NCBI RefSeq assembly: GCF_000499285.1
Contig: NZ_AWUN01000002.1
Location: 62,001-126,000, forward strand
DNA length: 64,000 nucleotides
Origin: Bifidobacterium sp. 7101
Lineage (GTDB): Bacteria; Actinomycetota; Actinomycetes; Actinomycetales; Bifidobacteriaceae
Reading direction: 5' to 3'
A program made the translations under genes and the position numbers. The stretch's first letter is position 1; every line of letters starts with the position of its first letter. The notes below the pieces were generated by a model that saw nothing but the letters and a program-made list of their open reading frames with translations, did no database searches and was not told the DNA's origin. Shown here piece by piece: positions 43,805 through 53,363 of this stretch.

Positions 43805-44332
43805 ATGGCCTCGATCAACCAGGTGGCGGCCAAAGATACCGCCGAAGCAGTCCACAAAATCTCGCAACTCAGCAACAAGGGCGTGCTGGGCGAATTCAAG
43901 CAGTTCATCTCGCGTGGGTCCATGGTCGATATGGCCGTGGGTGTGGTCATGGGTTCAGCAGTGACCAGCGTGGTCAACGCCATCGTCAACAATCTGATCA
44001 GCCCCCTGATTGCCATGATCTTCGGCAAACCGGACCTGTCGGGACTCCTGACCATCACCTACCGGAACGCCACAATCTCCTTCGGCGCCATTCTGACAGC
44101 CCTGCTCAACTTCCTCTTGATCGCCATCGCCGTCTACTTCTGCATCATCATGCCCATCAACAAGTTGCGGCAGTTGAGCCGGGCGGCCTCGGGCATCAAG
44201 GACCAGCCCAACGCTCCAAGCCCCCAGGACCAGAGCCTTCAGTTGCTGCGCCAGATTGCCGACGACATCCACCAATCAACGAACACAGACGGTCAACAGG
44301 TCGGAACCAGACTGCCCAAGAGCCAGAACTAG
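43805..44332 (+). CDS. mscL: Large-conductance mechanosensitive channel
   Basis: MscL is a pentameric osmotic safety valve in the cytoplasmic membrane. The 175-residue protein starts MASINQVAAKDTAEAVHKIS, an N-terminal extension of about 30 residues compared with E. coli. It then has GVLGEFKQFISRGSMVDMAVGVVMGSAVTSVV (helix TM1), a short loop, TM2 (FGAILTALLNFLLIAIAVYFCIIMPIN) and a charged cytoplasmic helix. A GGAAGGATG Shine-Dalgarno precedes the ATG. Confidence 0.94.
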   Translation: MASINQVAAKDTAEAVHKISQLSNKGVLGEFKQFISRGSMVDMAVGVVMGSAVTSVVNAIVNNLISPLIAMIFGKPDLSGLLTITYRNATISFGAILTALLNFLLIAIAVYFCIIMPINKLRQLSRAASGIKDQPNAPSPQDQSLQLLRQIADDIHQSTNTDGQQVGTRLPKSQN

Positions 44333-44341
44333 GCCCGACAG

Positions 44342-44575
44342 TCAGTCGCCGCGCTCATTGGGGAAGAGCCCCCAGTGAGGCGGCAGCTCGCCCAGAATCC
44401 GTCGGTCATCCCCGTCAAGCCGATCCTGTGTACAGATACGGTCCTGGGGATCCTCCTCGATGCCATCAACATCGAACCGCTCCTTGCCTGGACGAACCAC
44501 CCGCCGATGCCGACGTCGGTGCGGAGCCGCAGGCTCATCGAACTGATTATCGCGATCCAGCTGATTATCCGCCAT
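44342..44575 (-). CDS. Small acidic/Arg-rich protein coupled to the helicase-like gene
   Basis: The 77-residue protein starts MADNQLDRDNQFDEPAAPHR, with an Arg/His-rich stretch (RRRHRRVVRPGKERFD) and an end DDRRILGELPPHWGLFPNERGD. Its ATG overlaps the stop of the 1240-codon gene by one base (TGATG), which argues for translational coupling. No known domain, signal peptide or membrane segment is visible. It is convergent with mscL. Its function is unknown; it may act with the two upstream products. Confidence 0.7.
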   Translation of the reverse strand: MADNQLDRDNQFDEPAAPHRRRHRRVVRPGKERFDVDGIEEDPQDRICTQDRLDGDDRRILGELPPHWGLFPNERGD

Positions 44576-47500
44576 CAACGCGCCTGCTGGTAGATATCGG
44601 CAAGACGGGCAACGATCCTGTCGGCTTCTTTATCGGGGTTGACAAAGGCCGAAACACTCCAGACGGTCATGACCGACCAGCCAAGATACTGCAAGTCCTC
44701 AGTGGTGAACCGGTGACGCTCCCGGGTGGACTGGGTGTGCATGAACTCGGCATCGTCGGTCAACACGGCCAAAGCATAGGGCTTGTTCTTGAGCCCCACC
44801 ACCAGCGGAATTCGGGGCGCCTGATCGTACCCGTAATCCAGGGCTACATCCAGCCCCCGGGTCCGCAAGCGCTGGGCAAGATCCCCGAAGAGCACATTAG
44901 TGGACTGCTCGGCTTGCTCGGGCCGTGTCGGTTCCGTATCAGGATGCTCAACCCAGTTCAACAGATCCTTGAGCAAACGCGGTCCGGGCTGGTGAATGCG
45001 GTCGGCCTCCAGATCATCAGCCGAGAATGCCGCGACGATGTCCAGATTCCGATCCGGCAGGACCAGAGCATCCAGCAACATGCCCTTGCCCCCTTCGCCT
45101 TCCAGATCGCCGAACTGCTGCAGAAGACGGCCGTGGGTGGTCTTCGCAAAACCCAGAGTAAGGATCACGTCCGTGGCCCTGGCTCCGCAGACCTCGTCAA
45201 TGCCAACGATGCGTACATGCCGCAGGAACTTGGCGAAAGCCCTGTCCTTGGCCGCTGCCGACTTGAGTTCGGCGCCCAGCCTGGAGCGGTGGGTTGCCGA
45301 CAGGGTGACCACAGTCAGCAGATAGCTGTTCGGCACCAGGGAGAAGGATCCGGCCTTGCGTCGGAGCATGTCGACAACGGCGGCCACCTCCTGTTGGCTG
45401 GACTCGACCAGCCCAGTGGCCATTACAGGGACGCCAGCACCCTCCACCCTGGTCAGGGTTACCCTCCCAGGCTCCCGGCAATCAGGGACGGGCGCCGACA
45501 GATCCCCATAGCCATGATCCTTCAGGAAGGTGTCCAGCCGAATCGAGCGGCGCGAGGGCCGGGCTTTGACCGTGACCGGGACCAGATGGTCGACCAGCTG
45601 CAAGAGGCCATCCGAGGTGATGGTAGGCCGGTGGGCGATGACCGCCACCTGCCGGGCACGAGCCAGCACGGTCAGCACCTGGATGGAAGGCATATGGGCT
45701 CCGGCATCGATGATGACCGTGTCAGCCAGCTGTGTCGGATTCGTCCTGGTCGCCAACGTAGCCGGAGTCGCAATGATGATGGGCTTGGCCGCCGACAGGA
45801 TGCCGGGGTGGGCCTGCTGGAAGACCGCAAGGGAGGCACCGGGACTGCCGGCCAGCATGGTGTGCAGCTGATTGGCCTCCTGGGTGCGGGAGAAGAGCAG
45901 CTCGGACAGGCGCTTCTCGCTCTCCTGGGCAACCATGGGCCCTACGCTGGCCACGTGCTGTGCATCCACCTGGCTGAAGCGGTCGGCTGCATTGGATAGG
46001 GCGGAACCGTCCTGGTTGGAGATGATCTGCGAGGAGCGCATGATGTCATCGAAGACCGTGGTCCACCAGGTCAGCTGCAATTCAGCCCGTACCGCCTTGC
46101 CCCCAACCTGACGGTTGCGCAGGTCCTGGACCAGATCCTGCAACCCCGCCTTGTTGAATTCGTCCTCCAGGGCGCAGCGCTCAGGCAAGGTATCCAGGGC
46201 TGTATGGTCGTCAAAGAGGGCCTTGAGCCGCTCCTCAACCTTGTTCAAGTCCATGGTCTCAAGATCGCCGCCAGCCGGAGTCGAGGCCAGAACGGTGTCC
46301 AGAGCCGTCATGTCGCGAATCAGGGATTCCTGAGTATCGATGATGACGTCCAGCTTGGGCGGCAGGACCGGCCAGCCGCCGTGGGGGACAAAAGTCCGCC
46401 ATTGCTCTGCCTGCTTGGAGACCACCACCAGCGACTCATGCAGATCCTCGACCTGGGCACCGGGCCTGAGCAGGCTCTTGGCCTCCTTGACCAGACGTCG
46501 GCGTTCCCAGAATCCCAGATTGGTGCCATTGGCCTTGCGGTCGGCCTTGGACTTGGTGGCCTCGATCATGGCGGGAATGTCACGCTCGAAGATGGAGGGC
46601 TGGAAGACATCCAGTACCCGGCGCAGATTCTTGAGGACGACCACCTGCCTACCCCAATCCTTGACGGTGGCCGGCACGGGGAATCCGCAGGTCTCCACAG
46701 TGGATTTGACCTGTTCGCGGGTGTCCGGCAGAAGCCGCTGCAGCAGGCGAACCACACGGGAGTATGCGTCCACAGCCTCGTTCTCGCTGACCAGGGTGGC
46801 GCCGAACCAAGGCGTGTCCTGAGGACCGATCACGAATTCGCCCAGCTCGGCAGCCCTTTCCAGCTTGTCTGCCCAGGCATCCAGCTCGGGCTGCAGGTTG
46901 TGGGCCGTGGCCGCGCCCAGACGGACACGGGTGGCAGGGTGCGTAGGCATATTGGCGATGTTGGCCAGATTCTGAATGGTCTGGTAGGCCGAAACCCCCC
47001 AGCTGGAATCCACTCCATGCAGATCACCCAGGTAGCGGGTCAGCCGGGAGCGGACACCCACAAGCTCGTCAGCCACCTGATCGAAGTGTTCGCTGGCCTT
47101 GCCGGGTTTGAACCCCACTGCATCGATCAGCCGCTGGTCCAGGACCCGGCCCAGCTGGTCGTCGGTCAGGTCAAGAGCCATGTCCGCCATCCCGGCGGCA
47201 TCCAGACGACGCTGGAAGCGCCGCTTCTCCTCCACCACGCAGGGCACATAGAGTACGGTTCTTCCAGCAGTGACGCAGCGCGAGGCGATGGCCAGAGCAT
47301 CGTCGGCGCTGTGGCGGCCGGTCTGCTCATCCACGAGCACGCTGTGTCCGGTCGCCACCAGCTGGGCGGCATAACGGACCCGGTTGTCCACATCTCCGGC
47401 TTCGAACTCACTGTGAGGGTCTGCATCGAAGGGGCTGTAGTCAGGCACAGGTCCGCCCTTGAGCCGCTCGGAGGCAGCCTGGTCGCCAGCCAAGGCATCC

Positions 47501-48297
47501 AGCAGATCGTTGCCGGTGGACCCGGTGGTCATCCGGTCCAGAATCCGAAGGCTCTCGCCCAGCAGCTGGGCCGACGGCTCGATAAAGCATCCCAGAACGA
47601 TTTTCCGTTCGATGGTGAAGTCGCTGATATGCGGCGTGATCAGGGCCGTCATGTCCTTGAACAGGGATGAAGTTTCGGGGGTGCCGCCCTGATAGTGGGA
47701 AGCTGAAAACAGACGGTCAGGATCCAGGGTGATGCCCCGCTCACGCATGGCCGAGATCAGGGCAGGATTAAGGTCCACCTTGCCTGTGAACCTGATGGAG
47801 GCCCTGGAGGCCCCCTGTGTGCTCTCGTCGATACGCACGGGATAGAGCAGCACGGGCATGTCGCGCCCCTGCCAGGCAGCCACTCCCACCACCATGGAAA
47901 GCTGGGCGAAACCGCTGGCACGCTCCTTGGCAGCCTGATCGTCCAGAACCCGCTCCATGCGCCGGTGGGCTGCTCGCAGCATCCCACGGTCTCGGAAGAG
48001 CGCATCCAAATGGACCTGGCCGCTGGCGAAAAGCTGGGCGATGCCTGAAGGATGCGCATGCGTCAGGTCCATCTGCGCCGCCAACTGCGACACATTCTCC
48101 AAGGGGGTCAGGCCCACCTGGTTCTGGTAATCCTGGCGCCATCCTCGAATTCGCTCCAGGGGAGTCGACGGAGCCTTGACCTCTTCTGCCGCGCGATCGG
48201 AGGAAGAACCAGCCGTTGATGCCTGGGCATCTTCAGCACGTTTGTCCTCTTCCGATCCCCCGGTGCTCATTACCGTCTCGCTCATCCGTTCACTCAC
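44575..48297 (-). CDS. DUF4011/SF1-helicase-like protein with eroded active sites
   Basis: This 1240-residue cytosolic protein resembles large DUF4011 helicases in layout: an N-terminal DUF4011-like region (RDMPVLLYPVRIDES, KVDLNPALISAM, IVLGCFIEPSAQLL), an SF1 helicase body, and a C-terminal Vsr/MTES_1575-like domain (STRERHRFTTEDLQYLGWSVMTVWSVSAFVNP). The Walker A place reads LVDEQTGRHSAD (about 321-332), without GKS/T. The motif II place reads TVIIDAGAH (Asp864) instead of DEA. In the nuclease-like end, the expected Asp and Glu are Pro and Leu/Thr. It looks like an intact but enzymatically dead member. It overlaps the FHA gene by four bases and the small downstream gene by one. Confidence 0.8.
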   Translation of the reverse strand: MSERMSETVMSTGGSEEDKRAEDAQASTAGSSSDRAAEEVKAPSTPLERIRGWRQDYQNQVGLTPLENVSQLAAQMDLTHAHPSGIAQLFASGQVHLDALFRDRGMLRAAHRRMERVLDDQAAKERASGFAQLSMVVGVAAWQGRDMPVLLYPVRIDESTQGASRASIRFTGKVDLNPALISAMRERGITLDPDRLFSASHYQGGTPETSSLFKDMTALITPHISDFTIERKIVLGCFIEPSAQLLGESLRILDRMTTGSTGNDLLDALAGDQAASERLKGGPVPDYSPFDADPHSEFEAGDVDNRVRYAAQLVATGHSVLVDEQTGRHSADDALAIASRCVTAGRTVLYVPCVVEEKRRFQRRLDAAGMADMALDLTDDQLGRVLDQRLIDAVGFKPGKASEHFDQVADELVGVRSRLTRYLGDLHGVDSSWGVSAYQTIQNLANIANMPTHPATRVRLGAATAHNLQPELDAWADKLERAAELGEFVIGPQDTPWFGATLVSENEAVDAYSRVVRLLQRLLPDTREQVKSTVETCGFPVPATVKDWGRQVVVLKNLRRVLDVFQPSIFERDIPAMIEATKSKADRKANGTNLGFWERRRLVKEAKSLLRPGAQVEDLHESLVVVSKQAEQWRTFVPHGGWPVLPPKLDVIIDTQESLIRDMTALDTVLASTPAGGDLETMDLNKVEERLKALFDDHTALDTLPERCALEDEFNKAGLQDLVQDLRNRQVGGKAVRAELQLTWWTTVFDDIMRSSQIISNQDGSALSNAADRFSQVDAQHVASVGPMVAQESEKRLSELLFSRTQEANQLHTMLAGSPGASLAVFQQAHPGILSAAKPIIIATPATLATRTNPTQLADTVIIDAGAHMPSIQVLTVLARARQVAVIAHRPTITSDGLLQLVDHLVPVTVKARPSRRSIRLDTFLKDHGYGDLSAPVPDCREPGRVTLTRVEGAGVPVMATGLVESSQQEVAAVVDMLRRKAGSFSLVPNSYLLTVVTLSATHRSRLGAELKSAAAKDRAFAKFLRHVRIVGIDEVCGARATDVILTLGFAKTTHGRLLQQFGDLEGEGGKGMLLDALVLPDRNLDIVAAFSADDLEADRIHQPGPRLLKDLLNWVEHPDTEPTRPEQAEQSTNVLFGDLAQRLRTRGLDVALDYGYDQAPRIPLVVGLKNKPYALAVLTDDAEFMHTQSTRERHRFTTEDLQYLGWSVMTVWSVSAFVNPDKEADRIVARLADIYQQAR

Positions 48298-49883
48298 TTC
48301 CGCACGGCGTTCAGATATTCGTGATACCCGTCATTGTTGCGCAGGGCCGCGTCGATGTCCTGGTCGCCCTGAGCCTCCAACCAAGCGTACAGATCATCAT
48401 AGAGAGACGGATTCATCGCCAGGAAAGGCAGCAGCTGCCGATGCTTGGCCATGGCGAACTGCAGGGCGAAGTCCCCGGTACGCTTGGCATCATCTGAGCT
48501 CATCCCGTCCACTACGATGGCCTCCTGGCTACGGTCGTAGTTCCCCTTGGAGACCCGTTCGAAGACGGATCCGGGCTCGAAGGCTGGCTGATAACGCTGG
48601 TCATCACCTTGCTCGTCCGCTTGCTGGGGACGCCGGGCCTGATCCGATTCCTTCTTGGACAGGCGGGCCAATTCTACAGCTCCCAGCGGGGTGAACCCCT
48701 GAGCCGAGTCCGCTTGGTCTCTCCGACCCTGCCGTGACTGGCCGTCCGCATAGCCGCTGCGGCCGGAAGTTGCACGATCGTCACGATGACCACGATCGTC
48801 ACGGACATCACGGGCATCGCGAGCATCCCGGTCGTAGCGAATCTGATCAGAAGCGGATTCAGCGGAACGGGAACGGCGAGCATCTGCGAAAAGGTCGCGG
48901 TCGACAGGCTGACTATCCTCCTCCTGGGTGCCGACCAGCGGCAGGCCCTGCTCGGATTCTTGCTCCTGCCATGGCAGAGGCCGACGAGCTTCGCCACGGG
49001 CGCCCTGGGCCTGGAAGTCATTTGCACGCCGGTCACCCTGGCGGTCTTCGAATGCCCTGTCATCCGGCTGATCGGCATAGACCCTGCGACGGTCCGATTC
49101 CTGATCATCCGCTGAGTCTGCATCAGCCGCCCCCCTGTCAGCCTGGCCACGCTCGGCTGAATCAGAGTCGTCAGAATACCGGGCTTGCGAGCCCCGCGAA
49201 TCTGCGGGCTGCGACGGATTGTCCTGCGAGTCGCGAGCGAATGGGGCAGACCTGGGACGATCTTGTGGAGCGCTGTCGGCCTCTTGGGAGGAATCGGCTG
49301 TCTTGGCGGCGCCCAGAGCCATATCGTGCAGGGCAGTGACCCTGTTGCGGACCCCATCGGCCTTGAAGATGCCAGTGGGCTCGCCGGCGCGCATGTCCAG
49401 AATGTCATCGACGGACATTTCAGCTGCATCAGGTTCAACCATGCCACGGGGCTGTGTGGAGTATGAGAACAGGTCAGGCACCCGGGTCGAAGGGTCGGTC
49501 TTATCTTCTTCAGGATTGCTGATGCGCACGAAGTCGACAGGGACATCACCGAATTGGAAACGAGCCGAGCTGCTGGACAGGGGAAAGGCGGCATCCACAG
49601 GCAGCCTGACCAGGGATCCGTCGGACTGGATCAGATAGGACCCATTGGTGGAACCCATGTCGCGCAGAGTGGCCAGACCATCCTTGTCGACGGCGAAAAT
49701 GGCATGTCGTTTGGACATGGATTTAGTCTTATCGGGCACCTCCAGACGACGCCGACCATCATCGGCCAGTGGACGCAGAGGCTTGCGGCCGATCTCGACG
49801 GTCTCGCCAGGCTTGAGCCGGGTCTCTTCCGCCCCATTGAACTTGACTATCCACACCTGCCCCGGTCGCCGATCGTCACTCAC
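48294..49883 (-). CDS. FHA-domain protein with long disordered linker
   Basis: The 529-residue protein has an N-terminal forkhead-associated domain (about 10-115) with ETVEIGRKP, the phosphothreonine-binding MSKRHAIF and DMGSTNGSYL motifs. A disordered Asp/Arg/Ser/Gln-rich middle follows (about 195-420, with repeats such as RDARDARDVRDD). The helical C-terminal domain of about 75 residues (DFALQFAMAKHRQLLPFLAMNPSLYDDLYAWLEAQGD) resembles domains repeated in other actinobacterial proteins. FHA domains read Thr phosphorylation by Ser/Thr kinases. Its stop overlaps the start of the helicase-like gene, so the two products probably work together. Confidence 0.88.
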   Translation of the reverse strand: MSDDRRPGQVWIVKFNGAEETRLKPGETVEIGRKPLRPLADDGRRRLEVPDKTKSMSKRHAIFAVDKDGLATLRDMGSTNGSYLIQSDGSLVRLPVDAAFPLSSSSARFQFGDVPVDFVRISNPEEDKTDPSTRVPDLFSYSTQPRGMVEPDAAEMSVDDILDMRAGEPTGIFKADGVRNRVTALHDMALGAAKTADSSQEADSAPQDRPRSAPFARDSQDNPSQPADSRGSQARYSDDSDSAERGQADRGAADADSADDQESDRRRVYADQPDDRAFEDRQGDRRANDFQAQGARGEARRPLPWQEQESEQGLPLVGTQEEDSQPVDRDLFADARRSRSAESASDQIRYDRDARDARDVRDDRGHRDDRATSGRSGYADGQSRQGRRDQADSAQGFTPLGAVELARLSKKESDQARRPQQADEQGDDQRYQPAFEPGSVFERVSKGNYDRSQEAIVVDGMSSDDAKRTGDFALQFAMAKHRQLLPFLAMNPSLYDDLYAWLEAQGDQDIDAALRNNDGYHEYLNAVRK

Positions 49884-50142: not shown

Positions 50143-51678
50143 TCAGTCCTGGCCGTCCTCTCCCTCGTCGTGGTCATCAGCTGGGTGTGGAGTCATATGG
50201 ACGACGAATTGGTCATCCTCGGGCACCGTGCTGCGGTTGAGGTGGTCGGAGCTCGACATGTGGCAGGAGACCGTCCCGAAGGCCGGTACGCTTATCGATC
50301 GCCACCTGGCTCCCCAGCCATTGACGGTCAGGGCAGCCTGGATGGGCACTCCGGTCGGATTGTAGAGGATGACGCTGAGCTCACCGTCGTCGCGAACGAA
50401 GGCGACCGAACCCAGACCGCCGGTCCGGCCGTCGCGGGTATGGCTGGTGGAGGCCACCCTGCGAGCGCCGACCGGTACGTCCTGTCCGAAATTGCGAAGC
50501 ATGAAGTATTCCAGATTGCGTCTGACCCCGCCGGTTCGTGAGTCGACAGTGATGACCCCGCGCCGGCCCATGGTTCGCGCCCAGCTGGGCAGACCTTGCT
50601 CATCCAGGGCCAGATTCCACAGGTCGATCATGCCCACGCCCTGACGGACCAGTCCGATGCCTATCTCCCCGAACATGACGTGGCTTGCCTCGTCCACCCG
50701 CTCGTCCAGCATGCAGCGGCGCTCACTCATGACCGAGCGCCATCCCGGGAACTGTCTGGTGGCGTTCACCACCCACTTGGGCAGGCCGGAGTATGTATGC
50801 ATGGCCGTCCCGGCGAAGCTCAGGGCCTCCACAGGAGTCATATAGTCGCTGACCGGGCGACTGAAGAACCTCAGACCGTCATCACCGAAGAAGATCTCCA
50901 CCTCGGGGAAGCTACGGTCCAGTGCCGGACGCAGGTAGTCCACGCCCCAGCGCACCAGCTCCTCAGGAGTCCAGATCGTCATGGGCCATGGCGGATTGTT
51001 GGAGGGCTCGTTCTGCATGGTCACTGCCGAGATGGGAATCCCCAACTTCTGGTAGGCCTCAATAAACCGGACAAAGTAGCGAGCATAGGCGGCATCGACC
51101 GTGTCACGTGAACGGTAGCCGTTGCCGCAGTATTGACCCAGCCGCAAACGCCCAGCCCCGTCCAGCCGACCGCTGTCCTTCATCCAGGCGGGTGCACTCC
51201 AGGGAGAGGCCAGGATCCGCACGCCCGGGTTGATGGCCATGATCTCCTGAAGGACGGGTACCACGTACTTCATGTCCCTGGTGGCCTCGGGCGAGCCTGG
51301 CTTCCCCTGCCCAATGGAGAAGTAGGCCATGCCCGGATCCGACATAACCCCTTCGGGCAAATCATCATAGGAGTAGTAGCGCTGGCTGGAGAAATCGCAG
51401 GACCCCATCGAGATCCTCAGGGTGGAAAGGCCCGCCTGAGCCGGGTCGAAGAGCTCGGTGAGAATCCGATGACGCTGGTCGGCATCCATGGCCGTCATGA
51501 ACAGGTAGGCGCTGGAGTCCGTCAGAGCAGCACCGGCCCCCTCCCAATACTGGTAGCGCCTAGTTGGATCGATGACGATAGGGACGGCTGCGCCGGGTCC
51601 ACTCGTCGTCTCTGGAATCGCTATCGGTTCTCGCCGCTGGGACAGATCCCCTGCCGTTGCGGTCCAAATCTCCTTCAT
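50143..51678 (-). CDS. GH30 family glycoside hydrolase, second of tandem pair
   Basis: This is a 511-residue retaining beta-glycosidase of the glucosylceramidase-like GH30 type. The acid/base Glu224 lies in AVTMQNEPSN and the nucleophile Glu319 in MSERRCML; LASPWSAPAWMK and the C-terminal beta-domain (VAFVRDDGELSVILYNPTGVPIQAALTVNGW) are family blocks. There is no signal peptide, so it acts on imported sugars inside the cell. The closest relative seen is the adjacent upstream gene. The exact substrate (beta-glucoside, beta-1,6-glucan, beta-xyloside) cannot be told. Confidence 0.92.
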   Translation of the reverse strand: MKEIWTATAGDLSQRREPIAIPETTSGPGAAVPIVIDPTRRYQYWEGAGAALTDSSAYLFMTAMDADQRHRILTELFDPAQAGLSTLRISMGSCDFSSQRYYSYDDLPEGVMSDPGMAYFSIGQGKPGSPEATRDMKYVVPVLQEIMAINPGVRILASPWSAPAWMKDSGRLDGAGRLRLGQYCGNGYRSRDTVDAAYARYFVRFIEAYQKLGIPISAVTMQNEPSNNPPWPMTIWTPEELVRWGVDYLRPALDRSFPEVEIFFGDDGLRFFSRPVSDYMTPVEALSFAGTAMHTYSGLPKWVVNATRQFPGWRSVMSERRCMLDERVDEASHVMFGEIGIGLVRQGVGMIDLWNLALDEQGLPSWARTMGRRGVITVDSRTGGVRRNLEYFMLRNFGQDVPVGARRVASTSHTRDGRTGGLGSVAFVRDDGELSVILYNPTGVPIQAALTVNGWGARWRSISVPAFGTVSCHMSSSDHLNRSTVPEDDQFVVHMTPHPADDHDEGEDGQD

Positions 51679-51729
51679 GTTCGTACGCCTCCTTCTGCCG
51701 GGCTCTTCCCGGCATCGCCATTCCGGTCC

Positions 51730-53271
51730 TTAGTCCTGTCCGGGAGCCTTGTCATCCACGGTGTACTCAGGCAGTTGCAGGGCGAAGTCCTCATCCTCGG
51801 GTACGGCCGAATCATTGATCCGCTCGCTCGTCGTCACGTGCATGGTCACGGTCCCCCAGGCCGGCACGGTCACACTCTGCCAGCGGTCCCCCCAGCCGTT
51901 GATGGTGACAGCCGCCTTGATAGGCTTGCCTGTGGGGTTGTAAATATGTGCGGCGATGGATGCATCCGGCGCCAGGAAGGCCACTGAGCCCAGCGAACCA
52001 CTCCAGCCGTCCGGGGTGTAGTTGCTGGAGTCGATCACCACTGAGCCCGGTTCCACGTCCTGGCCGAAACTACGGAGCATGAAATACTCCAGGTTTCTGC
52101 GGACCTTGCCGCTGCCATGATCGATGGTGACCACCCCGCGTCTACCGTCGGCACCGATCTGGTTGGGCAGCCCACGCTCGTCCAGGGCCATGTTCCACAG
52201 GGTGATAAAGGAAGAGCCATGGCGGACCAGCCAGTTGCCGATGACCCCGGACATGATGTGAGCGGCATCCTCGGGGGTCTGGTCCAGCATGCAGCGACGT
52301 TCAGTCATGCCATAGATCCACTGCGGATAGACCCGGTTGGCATAGTCCAGTTGCGGGTAGTCGTTGTCATAGGTGTGCAGCGTCAGACCATCGATGGAAC
52401 GGGCCTGCTCGGCTGTGACATCCTTGTCGACCGGTCCGGTCAGGCAATGTGCCGAGTCGTCGTTGATGAAGATGCGCACCTGGGAGTGCCGACGGTCCAG
52501 CGCAGGACGCAGGAATCGGTGGGCGAAGTCGGCCTGCTGGGCCAGAGTCCAGGTCATGGCCGGCCAAGGGGCGGCGTTGGAGGGTTCGTTCTGCACAGTG
52601 ACCGCCCAGATAGGGATGCCTATGGCTTCCATCTCGTCGATGTAGCGGGCGAAGTACCGGGCATAGACGCCCTCTATGGAATCCTCAAGCGGATCATAGC
52701 CGTTGCCGGTCCACTCGTCGAAGCGCAGGTGGCCGCCCATGCACAGGTGGCCGGTGCTCTTCATCCAGGCCGGGGCGCTCCAAGGCGAGGCGATGATCTT
52801 TACCGCAGGATTGATGGACAGAATCTCCTGGACAACGGGGATGATGTACTTGTAGTCCTTGGTGGCGTCCGGAGCGCCCGGCTCGCCCTCGCCCAGGGAG
52901 AATTTAGTCAGGTCCTTGTCATGCTCGCCATAGGGAATGTCGTCGTAGGTGTAGTAGGGCTGGGAAGATGGCTCGCAGGAGCCCAGGGGGATGCGGATAA
53001 CCGAAAAGCCGCCCTTGTCAGGGTTGAACATGTCATCCAGCAGGGCATGCCTTTGCTGTGCGGATTGGCTGCCCCAGATCAGTGAAGCGGCGGCATCGGT
53101 GATGGCGGCTCCGGCACCGAGCCAGGGCTGATGCCGTTGGCAGGGATCGATGACGATGGGCTTGGCATCCTTGGGCCTCTCCCCCATCGGAGGGGCTTGC
53201 AGGGGCCGGCGGCGATCGGTCAGGTCTCCGGAGGTCACGGTCCAGAACTGGTTGGTGAAAGTGATGGTCAT
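51730..53271 (-). CDS. GH30 family glycoside hydrolase, first of tandem pair
   Basis: The 513-residue paralogue of the following gene has acid/base Glu229 (AVTVQNEPSN) and nucleophile Glu324 (MTERRCML), with ASPWSAPAWMKSTGH and the C-terminal HIYNPTGKPIKAAVTINGWGDRW. It is cytosolic (no signal peptide). I use the ATG at 53271 (MTITFTNQFWTVTSGDL), preceded by GAGAG; 13 more codons upstream are in frame but not supported. It leads a two-gene unit with a 51-base spacer. A TTGCAA-centred repeat lies about 95 bases upstream. Confidence 0.92.
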   Translation of the reverse strand: MTITFTNQFWTVTSGDLTDRRRPLQAPPMGERPKDAKPIVIDPCQRHQPWLGAGAAITDAAASLIWGSQSAQQRHALLDDMFNPDKGGFSVIRIPLGSCEPSSQPYYTYDDIPYGEHDKDLTKFSLGEGEPGAPDATKDYKYIIPVVQEILSINPAVKIIASPWSAPAWMKSTGHLCMGGHLRFDEWTGNGYDPLEDSIEGVYARYFARYIDEMEAIGIPIWAVTVQNEPSNAAPWPAMTWTLAQQADFAHRFLRPALDRRHSQVRIFINDDSAHCLTGPVDKDVTAEQARSIDGLTLHTYDNDYPQLDYANRVYPQWIYGMTERRCMLDQTPEDAAHIMSGVIGNWLVRHGSSFITLWNMALDERGLPNQIGADGRRGVVTIDHGSGKVRRNLEYFMLRSFGQDVEPGSVVIDSSNYTPDGWSGSLGSVAFLAPDASIAAHIYNPTGKPIKAAVTINGWGDRWQSVTVPAWGTVTMHVTTSERINDSAVPEDEDFALQLPEYTVDDKAPGQD

Positions 53272-53363
53272 GATTGCTCTCTCGTTGTCGTATCTGGGCA
53301 TCGGCGTCACGGTCGATAGGACAGAGCCTTAGCTTAGTTGCGGTTCTAATCATGAAAAAATTG

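Follow-up and report, generated by a model that had tools for sequence, protein, structure and literature searches.

Why would a bacterial chromosome keep a very long helicase-like gene, open from end to end, when the residues of its active sites seem to be gone? The question is raised by a stretch of 64,000 nucleotides from Bifidobacterium sp. 7101, of the Bifidobacterium asteroides group (contig NZ_AWUN01000002.1, positions 62,001 to 126,000; the whole stretch is referred to as the window). Three overlapping minus-strand genes encode an FHA-domain protein, a giant helicase-like protein and a small protein of 529, 1240 and 77 amino acids, with the same coordinates and lengths as in an earlier note made from the sequence. 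The FHA gene and the gene for the giant overlap by 4 bases (GTGA), the latter and the small gene by 1 base (TGATG), and 9 bases separate the end of the unit from the convergent gene mscL. Our preferred reading, to which we give a probability of about 0.55, is that the giant of the Bifidobacteriaceae is a dead helicase-nuclease kept as the non-enzymatic scaffold of the small protein, named here PPHW protein after its C-terminal motif, and tuned in bifidobacteria by the FHA protein.

A helicase-nuclease fold without its active sites

The nearest curated families of the giant are the anti-phage families ProA (NF058533) and Hhe (NF042953). ProA was its best NCBIfam match, with an E-value of 4.6e-52 and 176.8 bits against a curated cut-off of 1500, and PADLOC matched it to the candidate family PDC-S37. 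Pfam recognized a nuclease fold of the MTES_1575 type at the C-terminal end of the protein (Table 1), which the earlier note had missed. The Pfam DUF4011 profile did not match the window giant; it matched residues 34-168 of an orthologue, L158 (E-value 6e-8), with which the window giant aligns. Taken together, the ProA profile and the full-length alignment with L158 showed homology to DUF4011/ProA-type helicase-nucleases over the helicase core and the nuclease. A search of the PDB with the giant sequence produced no match.

L158 is apparently active and has the domains DUF4011, AAA_11, AAA_12 and MTES_1575, and it served as the reference for the comparison of motifs. The GPPGTGKSQT sequence of its motif I is replaced by EQTGRHSADD in the window giant (from residue 324), the DEASQ of motif II by DAGAH (from residue 864), the GDERQLP of motif III by AHRPTIT, the QGDERD of motif V by CGARAT and the NVAITRAR of motif VI by LDALVLPD. 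In the nuclease, VDLAV...VETD corresponds to IPLVV...VLTD, and the catalytic D and E are both lost. At motif IV the HYRS of L158 faces RPSR, in a region where the alignment is less sure. Judged by this alignment, motifs I, II, III, V and VI and both nuclease residues are lost, which bears out the observation, made before from the window alone, that the Walker A lysine, the acidic pair of motif II and the nuclease residues had disappeared. The P-loop and motif II were missing in all 48 Bifidobacteriaceae representatives compared, three divergent ones included; therefore, the dead motifs are not an accident of one strain.

An AlphaFold2 model was examined for residues 41-1240, with a mean predicted local distance difference test score (pLDDT) of 79.7 and a predicted template modelling score of 0.62. 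The structures that it matched were IGHMBP2 (Z 17.4), Dna2 (Z 16.9), Sen1 (Z 16.8), UPF1 (Z 16.8) and Aquarius (Z about 15), and the giant is thus predicted to have the fold of an Upf1-like superfamily 1 (SF1) helicase, with two RecA-like domains in the SF1B arrangement, for which the first four matches count with Z scores of 16.6-17.4. In the model, the degenerate motif I comes after the core strand that stands first, and motif II has a strand to itself, as in SF1 helicases. Because the slots are placed as in these enzymes and the model showed no second ATP site, the predicted structure does not contain the intact ATP site elsewhere that the earlier note had named as the observation that would count against its proposal. 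A cryptic enzyme, one that binds ATP or another nucleotide in a non-canonical way, is very improbable: a RecA-like core is still predicted, and D859 near the former motif II is nearly invariant, as are D1181, R1192 and R1196 in the nuclease, but the P-loop has lost its glycines and its lysine, DE, QLP, QGDE and the arginine finger have disappeared too, and the residues that replace the lysine vary widely between lineages (R, Q, A, G, L, H, V, S, T and P).

Retention, ancestry and the question of defence

The giant is present as a single copy in its own genome. Homologues were found in 143 of 151 Bifidobacteriaceae genomes (128 of the 130 good ones) and, with a broad profile, in 295 of 297 sampled Actinomycetales genomes (292 of the 294 good ones). 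In the B. asteroides group the ratio of non-synonymous to synonymous substitution rates (dN/dS) of the giant was 0.042, compared with 0.026 for the ribosomal protein gene rplL, 0.090 for mscL and 0.206 for 5-FCL; the values for the FHA protein and the small protein were about 0.19. A gene that is nearly universal and evolves with such a dN/dS is not decaying. The destroyed catalytic motifs could suggest a pseudogene or a sequencing artefact, a reading that hardly deserves credit, since it is refuted by the intact frames across the family, the dN/dS value and the conserved overlaps with the neighbouring genes. Strong conservation says instead that the giant does something important and non-enzymatic. 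The dN/dS value, the retention of the frame family-wide and the intact orthologues found elsewhere all agree with the proposal that the giant descends from a DUF4011-type helicase-nuclease and is conserved for a non-enzymatic role.

Relatives of the giant were also fetched from about 20 other families, designated here by the family codes of the genome search (f4, f16 and so on). In the orthologues of f4 and f16, GPPGTGKSQT, DEASQ and the residues of the nuclease are intact; those of most other families are dead. The apparently active DUF4011 helicase-nucleases of f4 and f16 (L158, L165, L166, L224, L225, L226 and L240) are located at the mscL locus, and mscL is convergent to the giant gene in 47 of 79 loci outside the Bifidobacteriaceae, in 12 families, the active members included. 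In Actinomyces oris, for example, the gene order is universal stress protein, 'DNA helicase', hypothetical protein (104 amino acids), mscL, SAF-domain protein, 5-FCL, glp and GNAT. The shared locus argues for vertical descent of the giant from an active ancestor that was already located there.

A maximum likelihood gene tree was built without the motif columns. Almost all families formed clades, and f4 and f16, which are mostly active, stood beside a large dead clade. The variety of residues replacing the Walker lysine had first suggested many independent losses, an idea that was abandoned when the tree was found to need only four changes. A tree with all dead sequences in one clade was 29.5 log-likelihood units worse and was not rejected by the approximately unbiased test (p = 0.19). 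From the sequences compared, between one and about four losses of the lysine are possible. The giant is most likely a catalytically dead version of an old chromosomal Actinomycetales helicase-nuclease. The derivation from a defence-type helicase-nuclease that had been put forward is supported as to its DUF4011-type ancestry. The family is older than had been thought.

The kinship to ProA and Hhe, together with the PADLOC candidate family and the sporadic occurrence of related long active proteins in other Actinomycetes, could also mean that the giant is a present-day anti-phage sensor or guard, a dead helicase that recognizes phage products and signals through the FHA protein or the small protein. 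This is unlikely. A defence gene would be expected to have a patchy, mobile or island-borne distribution, but the giant is single-copy, nearly universal, at a fixed locus and of very low dN/dS, and its score is far below the curated cut-off (177 of 1500 bits). Phage records gave one weak match and no other, and the only near-full match on plasmids was in an Actinomyces replicon of 415 kb, where the genes follow the standard chromosomal order. The active orthologues are likewise found at the same core locus. A defence system at work today is therefore not supported by the distribution of this chromosomal core gene.

Conservation was then compared by region between the Bifidobacteriaceae and a set of nine active proteins. 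In the active proteins conservation peaked at motifs I, II/III and V/VI, where the mean share of the commonest residue was 0.84-0.85. In the Bifidobacteriaceae the same regions reached 0.62-0.65 and the central insert 0.68-0.74. With only nine active proteins this shift is a trend and not a test; it suggests that constraint moved from the catalytic motifs to the central insert. These values also bear on a doubtful but not negligible alternative, a pseudohelicase that binds nucleic acid and serves replication, repair or the handling of RNA; its dead core would clamp or recognize DNA or RNA and recruit further factors, with the small protein as adaptor. The best structural matches of the giant are Upf1-like helicases bound to RNA or DNA, the helicase fold was kept although the ATP site is gone, the gene belongs to the core genome, and a precedent exists in PriA of Deinococcus radiodurans, a published pseudohelicase with a role in replication restart (PMC4504706). 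Nevertheless, the motifs Ia, IV and V that contact nucleic acid are eroded as well, conservation is highest in the helical insert and not along the canonical DNA track, and no repair or replication gene is genetically linked at the locus.

The partners of the giant

The small protein, which the earlier note mentioned only in passing, turned out to be a conserved companion of the giant, with its PPHW motif following the giant across 15 families. A match to it adjoins the giant gene in 87 of 91 Bifidobacteriaceae loci, many of which are near copies of each other. The exceptions include the divergent relatives L073 and L075, where a PPHW tail ends the giant itself, and L077, with a small frame ending in PPHF. 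Its relatives end in a motif of the type DDxRxLRExPPHW. Outside the Bifidobacteriaceae, the PPHW protein was found as a separate frame after the giant and on the same strand in 46 of 79 loci, and a direct scan added 5 separate frames and 12 giants with PPHW as their own C-terminus (f5, f9, f12, f16 and f17), making about 63 of the 79 loci altogether; 19 other frames out of about 6400 in these loci end likewise. The partner accompanies active and dead giants alike, and beside the active f4 and f16 members the motif is located in the next gene or fused. None was seen beside five loci of the outgroup type (f25, f32, f33 and f38). Gene order and fusion thus indicate that the small protein is the older, conserved partner of the giant. 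In a further family, f34, the giant gene and the small PPHW gene are separated by a CBS-domain-like frame (L215, L220 and L248).

The FHA protein was found to carry a C-terminal LRV_2 domain. Its FHA residues G-R33, S57, H60 and N80-G81, which are the usual phosphothreonine-binding positions, are invariant or nearly so in the alignment, and its linker is variable. The coupling of this gene to the giant, proposed before from the overlap, was recovered in 88 of 91 Bifidobacteriaceae loci (many of them near copies) but is specific to that family: the FHA gene was not found beside the giant in the loci examined outside it, and is therefore most simply a later, family-specific addition. A second protein with an LRV_2 domain is encoded in the same genome, L163 (G000:C1:71477-71650), near an RsmI-like rRNA methyltransferase gene.

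The scaffold reading combines these observations as follows. The helicase fold and the large helical insert of the giant would form a platform, perhaps still able to bind nucleic acid, onto which the small protein would dock through its C-terminal helix and PPHW motif; the small protein is encoded beside the giant in most lineages and as its C-terminal tail in several. In the Bifidobacteriaceae, the FHA-LRV protein, added in front of the operon, is expected to recruit the complex to a partner that a Ser/Thr kinase has phosphorylated on threonine, or to free the complex from that partner. We infer physical binding, phospho-control and a housekeeping rather than a defence role.

Several observations weigh against this scaffold. 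The small protein is present without the giant in many genomes, and it must then also act alone or with another partner. A 34-column profile of its motif gave one match each in 164 of the 246 genomes of Actinomycetes, and many of these genomes lack the giant, although some of the weak matches (E-values near 0.01) are expected by chance. In giant-less genomes of f21, f33, f38 and f40 the small protein is again convergent to mscL and often ends in PPHH; these PPHW/PPHH proteins (L286-L299 and L301-L305) share DExDxGWGE followed by LxxxPPH[WH] and occur about once per genome. Their neighbours are varied, mscL often being convergent, and no common function was seen among them. Neither the small protein nor its relatives had a match in Pfam or NCBIfam. 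In addition, since the FHA protein is absent outside the Bifidobacteriaceae, phospho-control cannot be the general role. Finally, the model of a giant-small fusion from B. reuteri (L058) had no confident interface, with a pLDDT of 26-47 in the small part and 62-64 in the helix before PPHW. This fusion is a real open frame, but its junction arises from a one-base shift relative to its relatives and may be a sequencing error, so it served for folding and for nothing else; L073, L075 and the fused giants of other families are independent of it.

More broadly, and with odds somewhat short of even, the unit may be a core actinobacterial complex not described before, in which an ancient PPHW protein would be the functional centre, the Actinomycetales would have captured the helicase-nuclease as its dedicated and by now non-enzymatic scaffold, and phosphothreonine control by FHA-LRV would have come later in the Bifidobacteriaceae, all in a housekeeping process.

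Elsewhere in its family the giant carries the annotation 'DNA helicase' or is placed close to anti-phage defence, and it appears to be neither; annotation and surveys of defence systems may go astray where they treat it as a working helicase or as a gene for defence. Its pairing with a small PPHW protein of most Actinomycetes gives a concrete handle on a conserved function, and the intact orthologues at the same locus permit a direct comparison of active and dead forms.

The features are collected in Table 1. Besides mscL, the neighbours in the window include, judged by their sequences, SAF and 5-FCL genes, as in A. oris, and an FmdB-type gene. Directly upstream of the FHA gene are tandem glycosyl hydrolase-like genes encoding mutually similar proteins of 511 and 526 amino acids (window positions 50143-53310, minus strand).

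Table 1. Features of the locus, in window positions; residues are those of the encoded protein.
Feature	Position	Strand	Basis
FHA-LRV protein, 529 amino acids, first gene of the unit	48294..49883	-	homologue adjoins giant in 88/91 Bifidobacteriaceae loci
FHA domain, residues 31-84	49632..49793	-	Pfam FHA, E 1.5e-5; invariant or nearly invariant alignment columns
C-terminal LRV_2 domain (PF25591), residues 474-516	48336..48464	-	Pfam, E 9.1e-11; missed by the earlier note
Giant, 1240 amino acids, predicted catalytically dead DUF4011/Upf1-like helicase-nuclease	44575..48297	-	profile matches, AlphaFold2 model, dN/dS
Former Walker A slot EQTGRHSADD, residues 324-333	47299..47328	-	aligned with GPPGTGKSQT of L158; flanked in the model by strand 320-324 and helix 330-343
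Central helical insert, residues 411-650, most conserved region in Bifidobacteriaceae	46348..47067	-	conservation by region; all-helical in the model
Former motif II, IDAGAH, residues 863-868	45694..45711	-	aligned with FDEASQ of L158
Region of former motif VI, now without arginine finger, residues 1069-1091	45025..45093	-	alignment with L158
MTES_1575/Vsr-type nuclease fold without catalytic D and E, residues 1140-1232	44602..44880	-	Pfam, E 1.3e-10; alignment with L158
Small partner protein, 77 amino acids	44342..44575	-	kept in nearly all Bifidobacteriaceae loci; relatives across Actinomycetes
PPHW motif of small protein, residues 65-68	44372..44383	-	invariant in alignment; C-terminal in relatives
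mscL, convergent neighbour and locus marker, outside the unit	43805..44332	+	convergent to giant beyond Bifidobacteriaceae; named in Actinomyces oris

Comparison with known systems

In the literature searched, no publication was found on the gene family of the giant or its function in Actinobacteria, and the main text of an essential-gene paper on Bifidobacterium breve (PMC5514069) does not mention the locus. Among characterized proteins, the DUF4011/ProA/Hhe anti-phage helicase-nucleases (PF13195, AAA_11/AAA_12 and PF18741) have the same domain order by alignment, and the homology to ProA, already significant for the window giant, reaches an E-value of 2.7e-242 for the active orthologue L158. 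ProA and Hhe are, however, about 1800-1900 amino acids long, compared with the 1240 of the window giant, which is dead by alignment, core, single-copy, at a fixed locus, far below their cut-offs, and linked to a PPHW partner and, in the Bifidobacteriaceae, to FHA-LRV. The Upf1-like SF1B helicases (UPF1, IGHMBP2, Sen1, SETX, Dna2 and Aquarius) resemble it in predicted fold, with Z scores of 14-17 over 430-510 residues, and Dna2 also joins a nuclease to such a helicase. Identity is only 11-14%, the window giant has no ATP site, and its nuclease is C-terminal and of the Vsr/MTES_1575 type.

Two bacterial cases are the nearest parallels. PriA of D. radiodurans (PMC4504706) likewise has a conserved helicase fold without helicase activity, although it belongs to an unrelated helicase family. 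In Pseudomonas aeruginosa, a DUF4011 gene present in every isolate lies next to a conserved small gene and flanks the defence hotspot cDHS1 (PMC10250203). This core gene and its small neighbour, likened here by description only, are a possible parallel in another phylum to the giant and its PPHW partner.

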